From an uncultured Planctomycetaceae bacterium (GTDB lineage Bacteria; Planctomycetota; Planctomycetia; Gemmatales; Gemmataceae), in contig CALARU010000312.1 of the NCBI GenBank assembly GCA_937888715.1, forward strand, positions 62,001-126,000: a stretch of DNA of 64,000 nucleotides. Direction: 5' to 3'. The position numbers were made by a program, and so were the translations under genes. This document shows positions 10,878 to 29,971 of this stretch, one piece after another (the first letter of the stretch is position 1; each line of letters begins with the position of its first letter). The notes beneath the pieces were generated by a model that worked only from the letters and a program-made list of their open reading frames with translations, made no database searches and had not been told where the DNA came from.

Positions 10878-12095
10878 ATGGTTGTTCCCAAGCATTTTAA
10901 AGTGATTATTCCTGTGTTTATGCTGTTTGCCTTGGCAATGCTTTGCAATCCCATCTTGGCTTTTCAAGAAGAGCCAGTATTTCAGGGCAAAAAACTTTCC
11001 GAATGGGAAGCCTTGCTTAAGTTGGCTCCAGGCTACGATAAGCTTTCTGATGCCGAAAAAGAAAAATCAACACGATCAAGAAGGGCAGGGCTGATTGCCT
11101 TGGAATTGATGGCAAACTCTTTGGATAATAGAATTCTCCCAGCAATGATGTTGGTTTTGAAAAATGATCCAGAAGAGAAGTTGCGAGAAACCGCAGCGTT
11201 ATCGATGACCCGGGTGGCATTAAAGATGGCTGAAAAAGCGAAATCGTCATCAACGAGGCAGTATGCGGCAGAAGCCCTGAAAGAAGCACTTGAAAAAGAT
11301 AAATCGATAAGAGTAAAGGAAATTGCAGCATCATCACTTGGTAAAATAGTTCCAGAATCAGCGCCTGCAATTCCAGCATTGATTTTGGCTATTAAACAAA
11401 AAGACACTGGGCTAAGGGTTGCTGCGGTGGATGCGCTGCGAAGATTAGGGCCCGAAGCCAAGGGCGCAGCACCTGACTTGCGAATTCTGGCTTCAGATGC
11501 AACTGCAGACATCATATCAAAATCGTTTGCGTTTCTAGCTTTGGGAAATTTCAGAGATGTGGAATCGATTCCCGTGCTTTTGCAAACGGTTCAAGATGCA
11601 AAAATGCCATTGGAGTTGAGGCTTCCTGCTGCCAACGCAATTTCGATGATGGGTGGCGAGGCGGGCGGGCGGATTGCAGAAAAATTAGGATTGCTGTTAA
11701 TAGAAGAAGGCACCCCGAAAGACTTGAAAATTGCAGTGTCAATCGCGCTTGATAGTCAGGAAAGTTTTGCCTATCCCGCCTGGAAATCGATGGTGGCCGC
11801 ACTTAAAGACCGTGACGCTGCAGTTAGGTCTATAATCTTGCATTGCCTAGGAAACACTGGGCCAAAGTTTCAAAAAGATTTTAAAGTGGTGCAGGCCGCA
11901 GTGCTAGGTTGCGTCAATGATTCTGCATTGGAAGTAAGGCTTGCTGCGGTAGAAACCTTGGGCCGTTGGGGTCCTGAACTTTCAGATGATGAAGTTTTGA
12001 AAAAGGTGGAAAGCCTAACGAAGGACACTGCAAAAGAAATGCGGGAAACAGCGGCAACCGTGTTGAAAAGGCTTAAGGGAACGCCTTCAAATTAA
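10878..12095 (+). CDS. Secreted HEAT-repeat protein
   Basis: A 405-residue protein with a signal peptide (residues 1-29, ending PILAFQEE). The rest is a run of alpha-helical HEAT-type repeats: recurring blocks such as REIAASSLGKI, LRVAAVDALRRLG, VRSIILHCLGNTG and VRLAAVETLGRWG space at about 35-40 residues and lead to the C-terminus. Such solenoids bind proteins; no catalytic motif is seen. The 3' end overlaps the selD stop region by 4 nt in convergent orientation. Planctomycetes carry many similar secreted HEAT proteins; the partner is unknown. Confidence 0.8.
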   Translation: MVVPKHFKVIIPVFMLFALAMLCNPILAFQEEPVFQGKKLSEWEALLKLAPGYDKLSDAEKEKSTRSRRAGLIALELMANSLDNRILPAMMLVLKNDPEEKLRETAALSMTRVALKMAEKAKSSSTRQYAAEALKEALEKDKSIRVKEIAASSLGKIVPESAPAIPALILAIKQKDTGLRVAAVDALRRLGPEAKGAAPDLRILASDATADIISKSFAFLALGNFRDVESIPVLLQTVQDAKMPLELRLPAANAISMMGGEAGGRIAEKLGLLLIEEGTPKDLKIAVSIALDSQESFAYPAWKSMVAALKDRDAAVRSIILHCLGNTGPKFQKDFKVVQAAVLGCVNDSALEVRLAAVETLGRWGPELSDDEVLKKVESLTKDTAKEMRETAATVLKRLKGTPSN

Positions 12096-13153
12096 GGCTT
12101 AAAAACTAGGTGATGCGATCCTTTAGCCTGAACTTCGCCTACTTCCACCGCGCAAATCGCTCCGTTAGCCAAAGCTGCTTTTATAAATAAAGCCACTTCT
12201 TCTTTAGGCAGGCTAACCAGCAACCCACCCGAGGTTTGGGCATCCAAAGCCAATTCCATGGAAACCGTATCAGGATTTCCTTCGATTCGGAGGTGGGGGA
12301 GAATATATTCTCGGTTGGTTTTGCTGGCACGCGTGAAAAAGCGTTTTGAAATCAGGGTTTCAATCCCAGCAAAGCGAGGGAGTTTTTGTAATTCAAAAAC
12401 AAGAGTGGTGTTGCTTCCCAGTGCCATTTCCAATGCATGGCCTGCAAAACCATAGCCAGTGATATCGGTCAAGCCATGCGGGTGTAGATTCTGCAGTGCA
12501 TCTGCGCCCACTTTATTTAGTTGAACCATGCTTAAGCATGCAGCCTTAAAAAGATTTTCCGGGCAGGCGTTTGCCTTGTGTGCAGTGGTTACAAACCCAG
12601 TTCCCAAAGGCTTGGTAAGAACTAGTCTATCCCCAGGCTTGGCCCCAGCATTGGTAAGCACTTTATCTGGATGAACAATACCTGTGACGGAAAGCCCGAA
12701 TTTTATTTCTTTGTCTCGGATGGTGTGGCCACCTACGACGACCGTGCCAGCGGCCATGCATCTTTCGGCCCCACCTTCTAAGATTTTCCCTAACCAAGTT
12801 AATTGTGGATCTTCATCATCGGGGTAGGCAACTAGGTTTAAAGCGGTTTTAGGAATGCCAGCCATGGCATAAACATCAGAAAGGGCATTGGCAGCTGCAA
12901 TTTGGCCATATAGGTACGGATCATCGACCACAGGGGGGAAGAAATCCACGGTTTGGACCAAAGCGATTTCATCTGTTAGCTTGAAAACGCCTGCGTCATC
13001 GTGAGTTTCGGTACCCACCAGCAAATTCGGGTCTTTGGATCGGGGCACATTTTGCAGAACCTGCGAAATCCCCCCCGGCGAAAGTTTCCCCGCTCAGCCA
13101 GCACAGGATGCGTAGTCGGTCAATCTTTTCTTCCGACCAAAAAAACTAAACAT
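12092..13153 (-). CDS. selD: Selenide, water dikinase, a UGA (Sec)-containing selenoprotein
   Basis: SelD makes selenophosphate from selenide and ATP, the Se donor for selenocysteine and selenouridine. The conventional open frame begins only at MPRSKDPNLLVG, which lacks the catalytic end. Upstream in the same frame the sequence reads MFSFFGRKKRLTDYASCAG-U-AGKLSPGG, with an in-frame UGA (13094-13096) as residue 20 exactly where E. coli SelD has catalytic Cys17, and Lys23 three residues later matching E. coli Lys20. The ATG at 13153 has AAGGAG about 6 nt upstream, overlapping the stop of the preceding SelW-like gene. Full length is 353 residues, family-typical. Later blocks DDAGVF, TTAHK and GGLLVSLP fit SelD. 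A candidate SECIS hairpin lies 30 nt after the UGA. No selA, selB or tRNA-Sec gene is in the window. Confidence 0.94.
13050..13068 (-). promoter_or_regulatory. Candidate bacterial SECIS hairpin in selD
   Basis: In the mRNA, GCAG-GUU-CUGC forms a 4-bp stem with a 3-nt loop, extended by UUU/AAA beyond a C-A mismatch. The stem begins 30 nt after the UGA and the loop G is about 34 nt away, inside the 16-37 nt range accepted for bacterial SECIS. The apex resembles the GCAGGUCUGC core of the E. coli fdhF SECIS. Confidence 0.55.
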
Positions 13154-13161
13154 GCCTCTCC

Positions 13162-13407
13162 TTATTTAACTTCAGCCATCAATTCTTCCAATTGTTTTAA
13201 TATCAACTCTTCGTTAGGGAACTTCCCTTCAGATAGTTTTGAGTAAAGCAGTTTTCCATTTGCGGTCAACTCAAAACAACCCCCACTTGATGGAATTAAT
13301 TTCATTTCGAGAATCTGCATTTTGAAATGTTCCAGTAATTTTGCTGTCAAACTGACAGCCTGAGGCTCATAGTTTCACTTGGAACAATAGCGTAATTCTA
13401 CTTTCAT
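13162..13407 (-). CDS. SelW-like (Rdx family) selenoprotein with CxxU motif
   Basis: An 81-residue thioredoxin-fold protein of the SelW/SelT/SelH (Rdx) family, thought to act in thiol redox chemistry. The N-terminus reads MKVELRYCSK-U-NYEPQAVSL, with an in-frame UGA at 13375-13377 forming the C-x-x-U redox motif (Cys8, Sec11). The later MKLIPSSGGCFELTANGKL and YSKLSEGKFP segments match the conserved SelW middle and end (VxLxPxxGGxFEVxxNG, SKxxxGxFP). The ATG is preceded by GGAAAGG. Conventional calling keeps only the last 62 residues and loses the active site. It is first in an operon with selD, whose ribosome site overlaps this stop codon. A 7-bp SECIS candidate follows the UGA. Confidence 0.92.
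13343..13359 (-). promoter_or_regulatory. Candidate bacterial SECIS hairpin in the SelW-like gene
   Basis: GCUGUCA-GUU-UGACAGC is a perfect 7-bp stem with a GUU loop. It begins 15 nt after the UGA, placing the loop G at about 22 nt, the usual distance for bacterial SECIS elements. The loop is the same GUU as in the selD candidate. Confidence 0.72.
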
Positions 13408-17368: not shown

Positions 17369-18511
17369 TTAAAGGGAGAGTATTTCTTTAAGAGCTGCGA
17401 TTATCTGGTCGATATCGCTTTCGGTATTAAATGCACCAGGGCTGATTCGAACCGAACCATCAGGGAAAGTGTTGATCGATTTGTGGATGTAAGGCGAGCA
17501 ATGCAAGCCCGGCCTTACAGCTATGTTAAAGGCTTCATCAAGAATACTGCCTATTTCAGGTGCAGCAAGTGATTCCGACTGAAAAGAAACAGTTGCAACC
17601 GTACGGCTAAGGTCATCACTTCCAAAAACAGTAACTCCGGGAATTTCTTTAAGATTGCTTCGGAGCTTTGCAACAAGCTTGGTTTCTCTGTGATGAATGT
17701 TGTTCATGCCTTCTTGATCAACCCAAGCTAAACCAGCAGCAAGGCCTGCGATGCCAAGAACATTAGGTGTGCCACCTTCGAGGTGGTACGGCATTTCCTT
17801 GGGTTGTGTTTCAGTGGAAGAGTCGCCTCCGGTTCCACCTTCTCTCCAAGTACGAAGAGCAACGCGATCCCCTGAATAAAGAAAGCCTGTACCAGTGGGT
17901 CCAAAAAGGCACTTGTGTCCAGGGCAAGCTAGGAGATCGATTTTTTGAGCTTTAATATCAATGGGTATAACGCCAGCGGTCTGGGCTCCATCAACTAAAA
18001 AGATGATGTTTTTTTCTCTGCAGATCGTTCCCACTTCGGTGATGGGCTGAATGGTTCCTAGAACATTGCTTGCATGGGTAAGTGCAACAAGTCGGGTTTT
18101 GGGGCCGATTGCATTTTTGATTTGTTCGGGATCGATGAATCCTTGAGAATCGGCATTAATTTTTGTGAGAGAGATTTTGCCTGCGAGTTCCATGATGCGC
18201 AGGGGTCTACTAACGCTGTTGTGTTCAAGATCGGTGGTGATAACATGGTCGCCTTCATTTAAAAGGCCTTTGAACGCCATGTTAAGGGCATCGGTGCAAT
18301 TAAGGGTAAAAATAAAGCGTTCGGGCGCAGAGCCTTTAAAAAGCTGATTGAGCCGATGTCTACAATCATCAAGAGCCCGTTCAGCTGCAAGGGCCATTTT
18401 GTGACCTGCCCGACCGGGGTTTGCCATATCTTCGCGTGCAAAGCGATCCATGGCTTTATAAACCGATTCAGGCTTGGGAAAACTCGTTGCAGCATTATCG
18501 AGATAAATCAT
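17369..18511 (-). CDS. Cysteine desulfurase family PLP enzyme (class V aminotransferase)
   Basis: A 380-residue PLP enzyme that would take sulfur from cysteine as a persulfide. MIYLDNAATSFPKP opens the protein without the longer N-terminus of SufS; the internal-aldimine Lys is K200 in CPGHKCLFGPTGTG; the catalytic Cys is C338 in RPGLHCSPYIH. Short-start desulfurases of this kind form a distinct clade of class V enzymes, some near selenium genes, so selenocysteine lyase activity is possible. It is the last gene of the SAM-riboswitch operon, 24 nt after the MoeB/ThiF-like gene, and would supply sulfur to the carrier. No accompanying scaffold gene is adjacent. Confidence 0.9.
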   Translation of the reverse strand: MIYLDNAATSFPKPESVYKAMDRFAREDMANPGRAGHKMALAAERALDDCRHRLNQLFKGSAPERFIFTLNCTDALNMAFKGLLNEGDHVITTDLEHNSVSRPLRIMELAGKISLTKINADSQGFIDPEQIKNAIGPKTRLVALTHASNVLGTIQPITEVGTICREKNIIFLVDGAQTAGVIPIDIKAQKIDLLACPGHKCLFGPTGTGFLYSGDRVALRTWREGGTGGDSSTETQPKEMPYHLEGGTPNVLGIAGLAAGLAWVDQEGMNNIHHRETKLVAKLRSNLKEIPGVTVFGSDDLSRTVATVSFQSESLAAPEIGSILDEAFNIAVRPGLHCSPYIHKSINTFPDGSVRISPGAFNTESDIDQIIAALKEILSL

Positions 18512-18535
18512 TTACAGCTCATCTGGGCGTTTAAA

Positions 18536-19576
18536 TTAGTGTCCGATGTAACGGGCGTAAAGCGTCTTTGCCCTGTCTATATCGCTTGTACCTTTAATGA
18601 TAGCCCGCCCATCGGGAAAAACGGTGAACTCACAGTCTTCAGCATTAAATTTAAGCATAAACTTGTTGAAGCTTACATCGCCCAAGGTCTTAAGTTGAGC
18701 AGCCATATCTTCAAACTTAATTTTGTTTGGCGTACGATTGGAAATTTGAACAGCGTTTCTGCCACACAAACTTGTGGTTTGCGAACCGAACTCGCCATCA
18801 ATCCATTCGAATTTTCGATGCTTGCAGCAAGGGCAATCAACCTTACCTAGAAGCGGAGCAATCTTTACCCTGCGATAGGTGTTTTCCCAAACATCAATCT
18901 GCACGAGTTCTTTGTTGATGGTTTCAGGTTTGCCTGAAAGAATCTTGATGGCTTCGGTGGCTTGCATGCTTGCGATGATGTTTACGACGGGCCCAAGTAC
19001 GCCCGCAGTTTCGCAAGTATCAGCAGAGCCGGGTGAGGGCGCAGCTTCAAACACACAGCGAAGGCAAGGAGTTTGATTCGGGATAATGGTCATGGTCATG
19101 CCATTGCTACCAATCACACCACCATAAACCCATGGCTTGTTATACTTGACTGCAATATCGTTGATGAGATAGCGAATTTCAAAGTTATCGGTGCCATCAA
19201 GAATAAGATCTGCGCCTTCACAAAGTGATTCGATATTGGTGCGATCGATATCGGTGACGACAGATTCGATGTTAATAGAAGAATTGATTGCACGAAGTTT
19301 ACGAGCAGCAGCTTCAGCTTTGGGCAGGTTTTCGGTGACATCGTTTTCATCGAAAAGAACTTGACGCTGAAGATTGCTGGGTTCGATAAAATCGCGATCA
19401 ACAACTTTGATGGAGCCAACGCCAGCCCGAGCAAGGTTGTTGGCAAGCACGGTGCCAAGGGCGCCGCATCCGCACAGGGTGACTTTGGAAGCTAAGAGCT
19501 TACGCTGCCCTTCTTCGCCCACCCCGTGGAAACGCATTTGCCTGCTATAGCGATCAATAGACTTGAAGTCGATCAT
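18536..19576 (-). CDS. MoeB/ThiF-like sulfur-carrier adenylyltransferase
   Basis: A 346-residue E1-like enzyme that adenylates the C-terminal glycine of a MoaD/ThiS protein for thiocarboxylate formation. Visible are GCGALGT (36-42) for ATP binding, DRDFIEPSNLQRQ (60-72), the zinc cysteines C171xxC174 and C248..C251, and the active-site Cys188 in DTCETAG. After residue 255 is a 90-residue tail in place of a rhodanese domain, ending GRAIIKGTSDIDRAKTLYARYIG, a shape often seen in MoeB-like proteins. Its start overlaps the preceding gene by 4 nt. The carrier in the same operon is the obvious partner. Confidence 0.92.
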   Translation of the reverse strand: MIDFKSIDRYSRQMRFHGVGEEGQRKLLASKVTLCGCGALGTVLANNLARAGVGSIKVVDRDFIEPSNLQRQVLFDENDVTENLPKAEAAARKLRAINSSINIESVVTDIDRTNIESLCEGADLILDGTDNFEIRYLINDIAVKYNKPWVYGGVIGSNGMTMTIIPNQTPCLRCVFEAAPSPGSADTCETAGVLGPVVNIIASMQATEAIKILSGKPETINKELVQIDVWENTYRRVKIAPLLGKVDCPCCKHRKFEWIDGEFGSQTTSLCGRNAVQISNRTPNKIKFEDMAAQLKTLGDVSFNKFMLKFNAEDCEFTVFPDGRAIIKGTSDIDRAKTLYARYIGH

Positions 19577-19941
19577 TCGCCATCTCCTACGCCCATGTCA
19601 TCAAGAAAGGTATCAAGAACTTCGACAGTTCCGCCGCCCCATTTTTCTTCGCGAGCAAATGCAGCAAGAACAGCAAGGTCTTCTTTAAGCCTTGCAACTT
19701 CTTTGGCATTTAAGCGCTGAAGGTAGGTTGCAACTTGATCCAAGATTGCAGCACCAGCCTGCTGATTACAAATGTTCTCATCCGAGCCGGCGATGAAAAC
19801 AACAAAATGTAGAAGGCTCAAAAGCAGCGGATTTGCTCCGACCTGATCAGGAATCTCTGGGAAAATTGCGGTTCCTTCTGGAACTTCAATGCTATTTTCG
19901 TCCATATCTTCCATTTCATCCATGTCTTCGTTGTCTGCCAT
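19573..19941 (-). CDS. Acidic protein of unknown function in the sulfur-carrier operon
   Basis: A 122-residue protein I do not recognise. The first 23 residues are strongly acidic and methionine-rich (MADNEDMDEMEDMDENS), then a helical region LLLSLLHFVVFIAGSDENIC and LNAKEVARLKEDLAVLAAF, with a GEGGT-like end. There is a single cysteine (about residue 58), no JAMM metalloprotease motif and no membrane segment. It sits 1 nt after the MoaD/ThiS gene and overlaps the MoeB/ThiF-like gene by 4 nt, so tight coupling suggests it works in the same sulfur-transfer step, perhaps as an adaptor. That is inference from position only. Confidence 0.75.
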   Translation of the reverse strand: MADNEDMDEMEDMDENSIEVPEGTAIFPEIPDQVGANPLLLSLLHFVVFIAGSDENICNQQAGAAILDQVATYLQRLNAKEVARLKEDLAVLAAFAREEKWGGGTVEVLDTFLDDMGVGDGE

Positions 19942-19942
19942 A

Positions 19943-20215
19943 TTAACCTCCTGCTACTGCCGGGATAATTGCTACTTCGTCGCCATCTTTTACAGGAGTG
20001 GCAAGGTTTTCGAGGTAACGCATATCTTCGTCATTGATAAAGATGTTTACAAATCTGCGCAACTGGCCATTATCGAACAGCCGTTGTTCCATTGCTGGGT
20101 GAAGTTTACAAAGTTCGCCAAGTGCTTCGCCTACAGTGATGGCAATAACTTCAACCGAAGCGAGATTGCCCGCATGAGGTCGGAGTGGAGTAGGGATTTG
20201 AATTTTAACTGCCAT
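19943..20215 (-). CDS. MoaD/ThiS-family sulfur carrier protein
   Basis: A 90-residue beta-grasp protein. It begins MAVKIQIPTPLRP, continues VGEALGELCKLHPAMEQRLF and INDEDMRYLENLATPVKDGDEVAIIPAVAGG. The C-terminus is a free Gly-Gly as in MoaD and ThiS, so no proteolytic trimming is needed before adenylation. In this family the Gly carboxylate becomes a thiocarboxylate that donates sulfide. No molybdopterin or thiazole genes are near; the operon partners are a threonine-synthase-like enzyme, a MoeB/ThiF activator and a desulfurase. That context resembles the CysO and HcyS carriers of amino-acid sulfur assimilation. Confidence 0.93.
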   Translation of the reverse strand: MAVKIQIPTPLRPHAGNLASVEVIAITVGEALGELCKLHPAMEQRLFDNGQLRRFVNIFINDEDMRYLENLATPVKDGDEVAIIPAVAGG

Positions 20216-21642: not shown

Positions 21643-21760
21643 TTCTTATCTCTCCCGGCAAACCCGGGTAGGAGGTAGCACCAGCATCGTTGCGAGTAAA
21701 CGCTTCGACCGGTTGCTGTGGCTTCGACGGGCCTAATCCCTCTGCCACTCTGGATAAGAA
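21643..21760 (-). ncRNA. SAM-I (S-box) riboswitch
   Basis: Read on the minus strand, the element opens with CUUAUCCAGAG, then GGCAGAGGGAUUAGGCCC, GAAGCCACAGCAACC, GGUGCUACCUCC and closes GAGAGAUAAG, matching the conserved S-box strings in order. P1 is an 8-bp pairing between 21643-21650 and 21753-21760. SAM binding normally represses methionine or sulfur genes. It lies 113 nt upstream of the threonine-synthase-like GTG. The 3' strand of P1 (GAGAUAAGAA) can instead pair with a downstream UUUUUUAUCUC at about 21610-21620, a plausible alternative structure. A second hairpin (GCAGG/CCUGC, 21549-21565) lies closer to the start. Confidence 0.95.
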
Positions 21761-29558: not shown

Positions 29559-29971
29559 TTCACAAGCTGGTTGGATAGTCGCTGCTGCTTTGAAAAAAGC
29601 GGGAGAGGAAAGTCCGGGCTCCATAGGACACGGTGGTGGGTAACTCCCACCGTCCGAAGTAACATACTTAACTGTGTGTTGCGTAAGGGTAGGGAAAGTG
29701 CAACAGAAAGATACCGCCCCAAAAGGGTAAGGGTGAAATGGCGGGGGAATGCAAATTCCTTAATGTAAGAGCCCACCAGCAGCCTGGTGACAGGCTGGCT
29801 CGGCAAACCCCACCGGGAGCAAGGCCAAATAAGAAGGAAGGACTGGTCCGGTCCGTTTGACCTTCGGGTAGGTCGCTCGAGCGTTCGGGTAACCGTTCGC
29901 CTAGATAAATGGCTATCTTCTTGCCTTTTTAAGGCAAGATACAGAACCCGGCTTATAGGCTGGCTTGTGAA
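29559..29971 (+). ncRNA. rnpB: RNase P RNA, bacterial type A
   Basis: The catalytic RNA that trims tRNA 5' leaders. Signature strings are in order: GAGGAAAGUCCGGGCUCC in the 5' half, then AACCCCACCGGGAGCAA, UAGAUAAAUGGCUA and ACAGAACCCGGCUUA in the 3' half. The ends pair as P1 (uucacaagc with gcuugugaa). Length about 413 nt. The U-rich tail directly after P1 runs into the stop codon of the convergent DUF1501 gene, so the two 3' ends overlap. Confidence 0.97.

Follow-up and report, generated by a model that had tools for sequence, protein, structure and literature searches.

An in-frame UGA codon at the catalytic position of SelD

Does a UGA codon within the selenide, water dikinase gene (selD) of an uncultured Planctomycetaceae bacterium end the reading frame, or does it encode selenocysteine (Sec) in the active site? 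The window analyzed here, a 64,000-nt stretch of a single contig, had been proposed in a preliminary description to carry a SelD gene with Sec at 12092-13153. The gene is real; its strand, which was missing from that description, is the minus strand, and a plus-strand reading of the same interval contains many stops. The features of the gene are as follows.

12092..13153, minus strand: selD, selenide, water dikinase, 353 aa, putative Sec at residue 20 (translation with UGA read as U, TIGR00476, alignment with 3u0o)
13094..13096, minus strand: in-frame UGA, putative Sec codon 20 of selD, at the position of E. coli Cys17 (translation, alignment)
13158..13163, minus strand: Shine-Dalgarno sequence AAGGAG of selD, overlapping the selW stop codon (sequence)

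With UGA translated as U, the frame runs from an ATG at 13153-13151, preceded by AAGGAG, to a TAA stop at 12092-12094; the product begins MFSFFGRKKRLTDYASCAGUAGKLSPGG... and the only UGA is codon 20. Under table 11, the default ORF starts at GTG 13048, 35 codons late, and encodes 318 aa without the catalytic loop. Both the strong Shine-Dalgarno sequence at the extended ATG and the late start expected of an ordinary gene finder had been predicted, correctly, from the sequence. The match to TIGR00476 (355.9 bits, cut-off 125) covers residues 10-319 and runs through the UGA. In the alignment with E. coli SelD (3u0o), which extends over almost the full length (query residues 9-347), U20 is aligned with Cys17, as the preliminary description had it, and K23 with Lys20, such that the Cys/Sec and Lys of the N-terminal catalytic loop are both present. 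The planctomycete protein thus retains the catalytic Lys but differs from E. coli SelD in having Sec for Cys17 and Gly for Cys19, with a Cys at -3 instead.

Conservation of the UGA codon across relatives

Within the genus, the catalytic codon is UGA in the window's genome and in five others, six in all; in another genome of this genus (G086), no SelD match of the close type was detected. The family is most likely Gemmataceae, as members of it correspond to Fimbriiglobus and Gemmataceae records. Across 95 of its genomes, most genes of the close SelD type (57-98% identity) contain exactly one TGA, and in every SelD locus that was read it falls at this codon. Among the 30 best family selD loci, 28 have UGA, and Cys is encoded in the remaining two. 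Altogether, five Cys relatives (L036, L043, L050, L051 and L052) have TGT or TGC at the Sec codon and keep the Cys at -3, giving CxxC; Cys at the UGA position of homologues is one of the marks of a bacterial selenoprotein gene. In the tree, in which some forks are weakly supported, these five Cys-SelDs branch from within the family's Sec sequences, suggesting conversion from Sec to Cys. Given that selA is also present in several family genomes with Cys-SelD, the presence of selA alone does not track Sec-SelD.

Two other readings of the frame can be weighed against these data. A shortened SelD translated from GTG 13048, without the catalytic loop, would be the sole open reading frame under table 11. 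Residues 10-23, however, lie upstream of this GTG and are nearly invariant among relatives, the N-terminal extension evolves as coding sequence does, with changes in the genus confined almost entirely to third codon positions, and the strong Shine-Dalgarno sequence is located at the upstream ATG, all of which make the shortened protein exceedingly improbable. We give just as little credence to the view that UGA is in general use here as a sense codon (Trp) or that the frame reflects random readthrough or a sequencing error. This view has in its favor the in-frame UGA itself and nothing else, while TGA ends 11 of the 45 long ORFs in the window, relatives have Cys rather than Trp at the codon, and further assemblies, of the genus as well as the family, have the UGA too. 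Chance is excluded, since similarity to SelD spans the UGA, residues 10-23 hardly vary among relatives and this codon is UGA throughout the genus. Comparison among relatives supports selD as a selenoprotein gene, in which we infer that UGA is read as Sec in the active site.

Other SelD types were also seen. A number of family genomes still carrying selA have as their SelD a distant Cys-type protein (RAGCAAK, ~42% identity; L057, L058, L060, L061 and L062 in genomes G075, G022, G023, G068 and G047). In many family genomes, SelD-like matches (~34% identity) lie within frames of ~730-790 aa, which probably represent the Ndh-SelD fusion already known. In a record labelled Lutibacter sp. B2 (L119), SelD groups with Tissierellia, suggesting a mislabelled record or transfer.

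A covarying hairpin downstream of the selD UGA

Single-sequence folding after the UGAs of both selD and selW gave no significant energy, the selD region of the window species folding no better than shuffled sequences, and covariation was therefore used instead. An alignment of 49 sequences, which ranged from Gemmataceae to Phycisphaerae and included a few from other phyla, revealed a hairpin that the preliminary description did not include:

13052..13066, minus strand: predicted bacterial SECIS hairpin of selD, 6-bp stem and GUU loop, five of six pairs formed here (covariation, codon shuffles)

The hairpin lies 27 nt after the UGA; counted from the U of that codon, nt 31-36 pair with nt 40-45, enclosing a GUN loop whose G and U are invariant. 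Pairing was observed in 96.9% of cells of the alignment, and both sides had changed in 31 cells, affecting four pairs; the covariation score was 0.383, compared to 0.125 for shuffled and ≤0.075 for slid alignments. Synonymous codon shuffling, which separates the hairpin signal from protein conservation, left all six pairs in a mean of 5.0 (maximum 12) of the 52 Sec genes, while 41 of the actual genes have all six, and the mean number of stem pairs was 5.60 of 6 against 4.06 (sd 0.14) in this null. Compensating changes, most of them synonymous, preserve the stem, with codons switching jointly between CAG-CTG and CAA-TTG (synonymous swaps) and among GCG-CGC, GCT-AGC and GCC-GGC. In the five Cys relatives the stem is eroded, with only one to four of the six pairs left. 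The window species itself has one mismatch (C-A). Judged by these comparisons, the hairpin is a bacterial SECIS element, lying shortly downstream of the UGA and presenting a G in a small apical loop.

A second candidate selenoprotein gene, selW, upstream of selD

Directly upstream of selD is a gene that is overlooked by standard ORF calling and was likewise absent from the preliminary description:

13162..13407, minus strand: selW-like gene, predicted Rdx-family selenoprotein of 81 aa, CSKU motif, putative Sec at residue 11 (translation, TIGR02174, PF10262)
13375..13377, minus strand: in-frame UGA, putative Sec codon 11 of selW (translation)
13343..13359, minus strand: SECIS-like hairpin of selW, GCTGTCA-GTT-TGACAGC (sequence, comparison)

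The product (MKVELRYCSKUNYEPQ...) scores 63.9 bits with TIGR02174 (cut-off 34.2) and 71.4 bits with PF10262 (cut-off 22.6). The UGA and hairpin are conserved into Bacillaceae, where the hairpin keeps its location but has a stem of different bases (GCGA-GTT-TCGC). By these comparisons, the selW-like gene is a second selenoprotein gene, with Sec insertion predicted at codon 11. It resembles the known SelW-like Rdx selenoproteins (PF10262; PMC1088965, PMC2398784) in its CxxU motif, length, Rdx family and a SECIS-like hairpin of its own, and differs from them in that the planctomycete gene is directly upstream of selD and some relatives have UxxU. The latter are two members of genus g16 (L028 and L035), whose SelW has two UGA codons, with UAMU replacing CxxU. 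A further SelW-like gene with an in-frame TGA (CTSU) is present elsewhere in the window's genome (L063, G000:C30:5200-5412).

When the window was scanned for further UGA-interrupted frames, only selD and selW were convincing, as judged by eye. The window also contains a SAM riboswitch (21643-21760, minus strand), an RNase P RNA (29563-29971, plus strand) and a minus-strand cluster (17369-20215) whose genes, named by eye from their sequences, resemble those for cysteine desulfurase, ThiF/MoeB and ThiS/MoaD and perhaps form a sulfur-carrier pathway.

Selenocysteine machinery in the genome

The preliminary description had made the absence of Sec machinery its point of refutation; in the same genome (4.56 Mb assembly, 99.6% complete), tRNA-Sec, selA and selB are all present. 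The tRNA-Sec is above the Rfam cut-off and was called by ARAGORN as type SeC with anticodon TCA (UCA), while selA (542 bits) and selB (405.5 bits), both above their curated cut-offs, adjoin each other on contig C287. The selenouridine synthase gene mnmH was detected with 324 bits. The check for selenoproteins covered SelD, Rdx, Fdh-alpha and MnmH, and no in-frame UGA was found in the Fdh-alpha-like genes. Sec users without FdhA were reported to have Sec-SelD and, in most cases, the selenouridine trait (PMC1794560), and Sec-SelD together with mnmH and no Sec-containing Fdh-alpha among the four families checked agrees with that statement. Genes for Sec insertion have already been reported for Gemmata obscuriglobus and Isosphaera pallida (PMC4807772).

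An in-frame UGA was also seen in mnmH of two species of one genus at the same codon (RLUQLDP; L048, G048:C141, and L049, G045:C30). The position is not Cys in aligned homologues, and neither Sec nor an error fits comfortably.

Pairing of selW and selD

Among the 30 best family loci, 23 have selW directly upstream of selD and codirectional with it, and with further family loci counted, selW is just upstream in 13 genera. The same arrangement was found in one Isosphaeraceae and two Gemmatales records, while in nine Bacillaceae loci the two genes are divergently oriented, head to head. In two family members (L043 and L052), Sec is retained in SelW and Cys is found in SelD. We found no description of the pairing in the papers searched, which left out most subscription papers, such that this is absence of evidence only; the neighboring selenoprotein genes given in PMC2398784 include Prx/SelW and others but not SelW/SelD. 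The recurrent selW-selD pairing thus seems to be undescribed so far.

What the pairing reflects can be read in two ways. There is about an even chance that selW and selD are neighbors with no functional link, through shared regulation or slow rearrangement, in line with the lack of an adjacent selW in seven of the 30 family loci and in the Phycisphaerae compared. The occurrence of two arrangements, codirectional in Gemmatales/Isosphaeraceae and head to head in Bacillaceae, argues against this. A more tentative idea, which we regard as possible but rather unlikely, is that SelW acts as a partner dedicated to SelD: being a redox protein with CxxU, it would keep the CxxU of SelD reduced or hand over selenide.

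Discussion

The best explanation for the locus as a whole, to which we assign a probability of about 0.96, is that selW and selD form a pair, probably one operon, whose products are both selenoproteins synthesized by hairpin-guided UGA decoding. Promoter and terminator scans gave nothing above chance, and cotranscription is a presumption. Each UGA would be decoded as Sec by SelB and Sec-tRNA-Sec, guided by the hairpin within the coding sequence ~15 nt (selW) or 27 nt (selD) downstream. SelD is predicted to convert selenide and ATP to selenophosphate, with Sec20 and Lys23 in the active-site loop. The selenophosphate would be passed to SelA for Sec synthesis, including that of the Sec in SelD itself, and to MnmH for 2-selenouridine in tRNA.

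Together with FdhA, Sec-SelD is the most widespread bacterial selenoprotein (PMC1794560). The planctomycete protein shares with described Sec-SelDs (PMC1794560; PMC4561486) the Sec at the catalytic position, a downstream bacterial SECIS and selA, selB and tRNA-Sec in the genome, and differs in nothing essential, with a CxxU motif (CAGUAGK) here compared to the UGC motif (KAGUGCK) of Bacillaceae. CxxU accounts for about 5.6% of single-domain Sec-SelDs in the GOS set (PMC2398784) and was found in 25 of 80 named SelD loci here, a count to which one search pattern favoring the CxxU motif contributed. The Sec-SelD family is thus long known and its CxxU variant on record; the fresh lead is the SelW-SelD link only.

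Two genes are corrected by our analysis: selD, which ordinary annotation cuts short, and selW, which it misses. A clear Planctomycetota clade of CxxU-type Sec-SelD is added as well, containing nested Sec-to-Cys conversions that are accompanied by decay of the SECIS. The recurrent pairing of selW with selD suggests a testable role for bacterial SelW: were it a partner of SelD, it would have a defined part in the activation of selenium.
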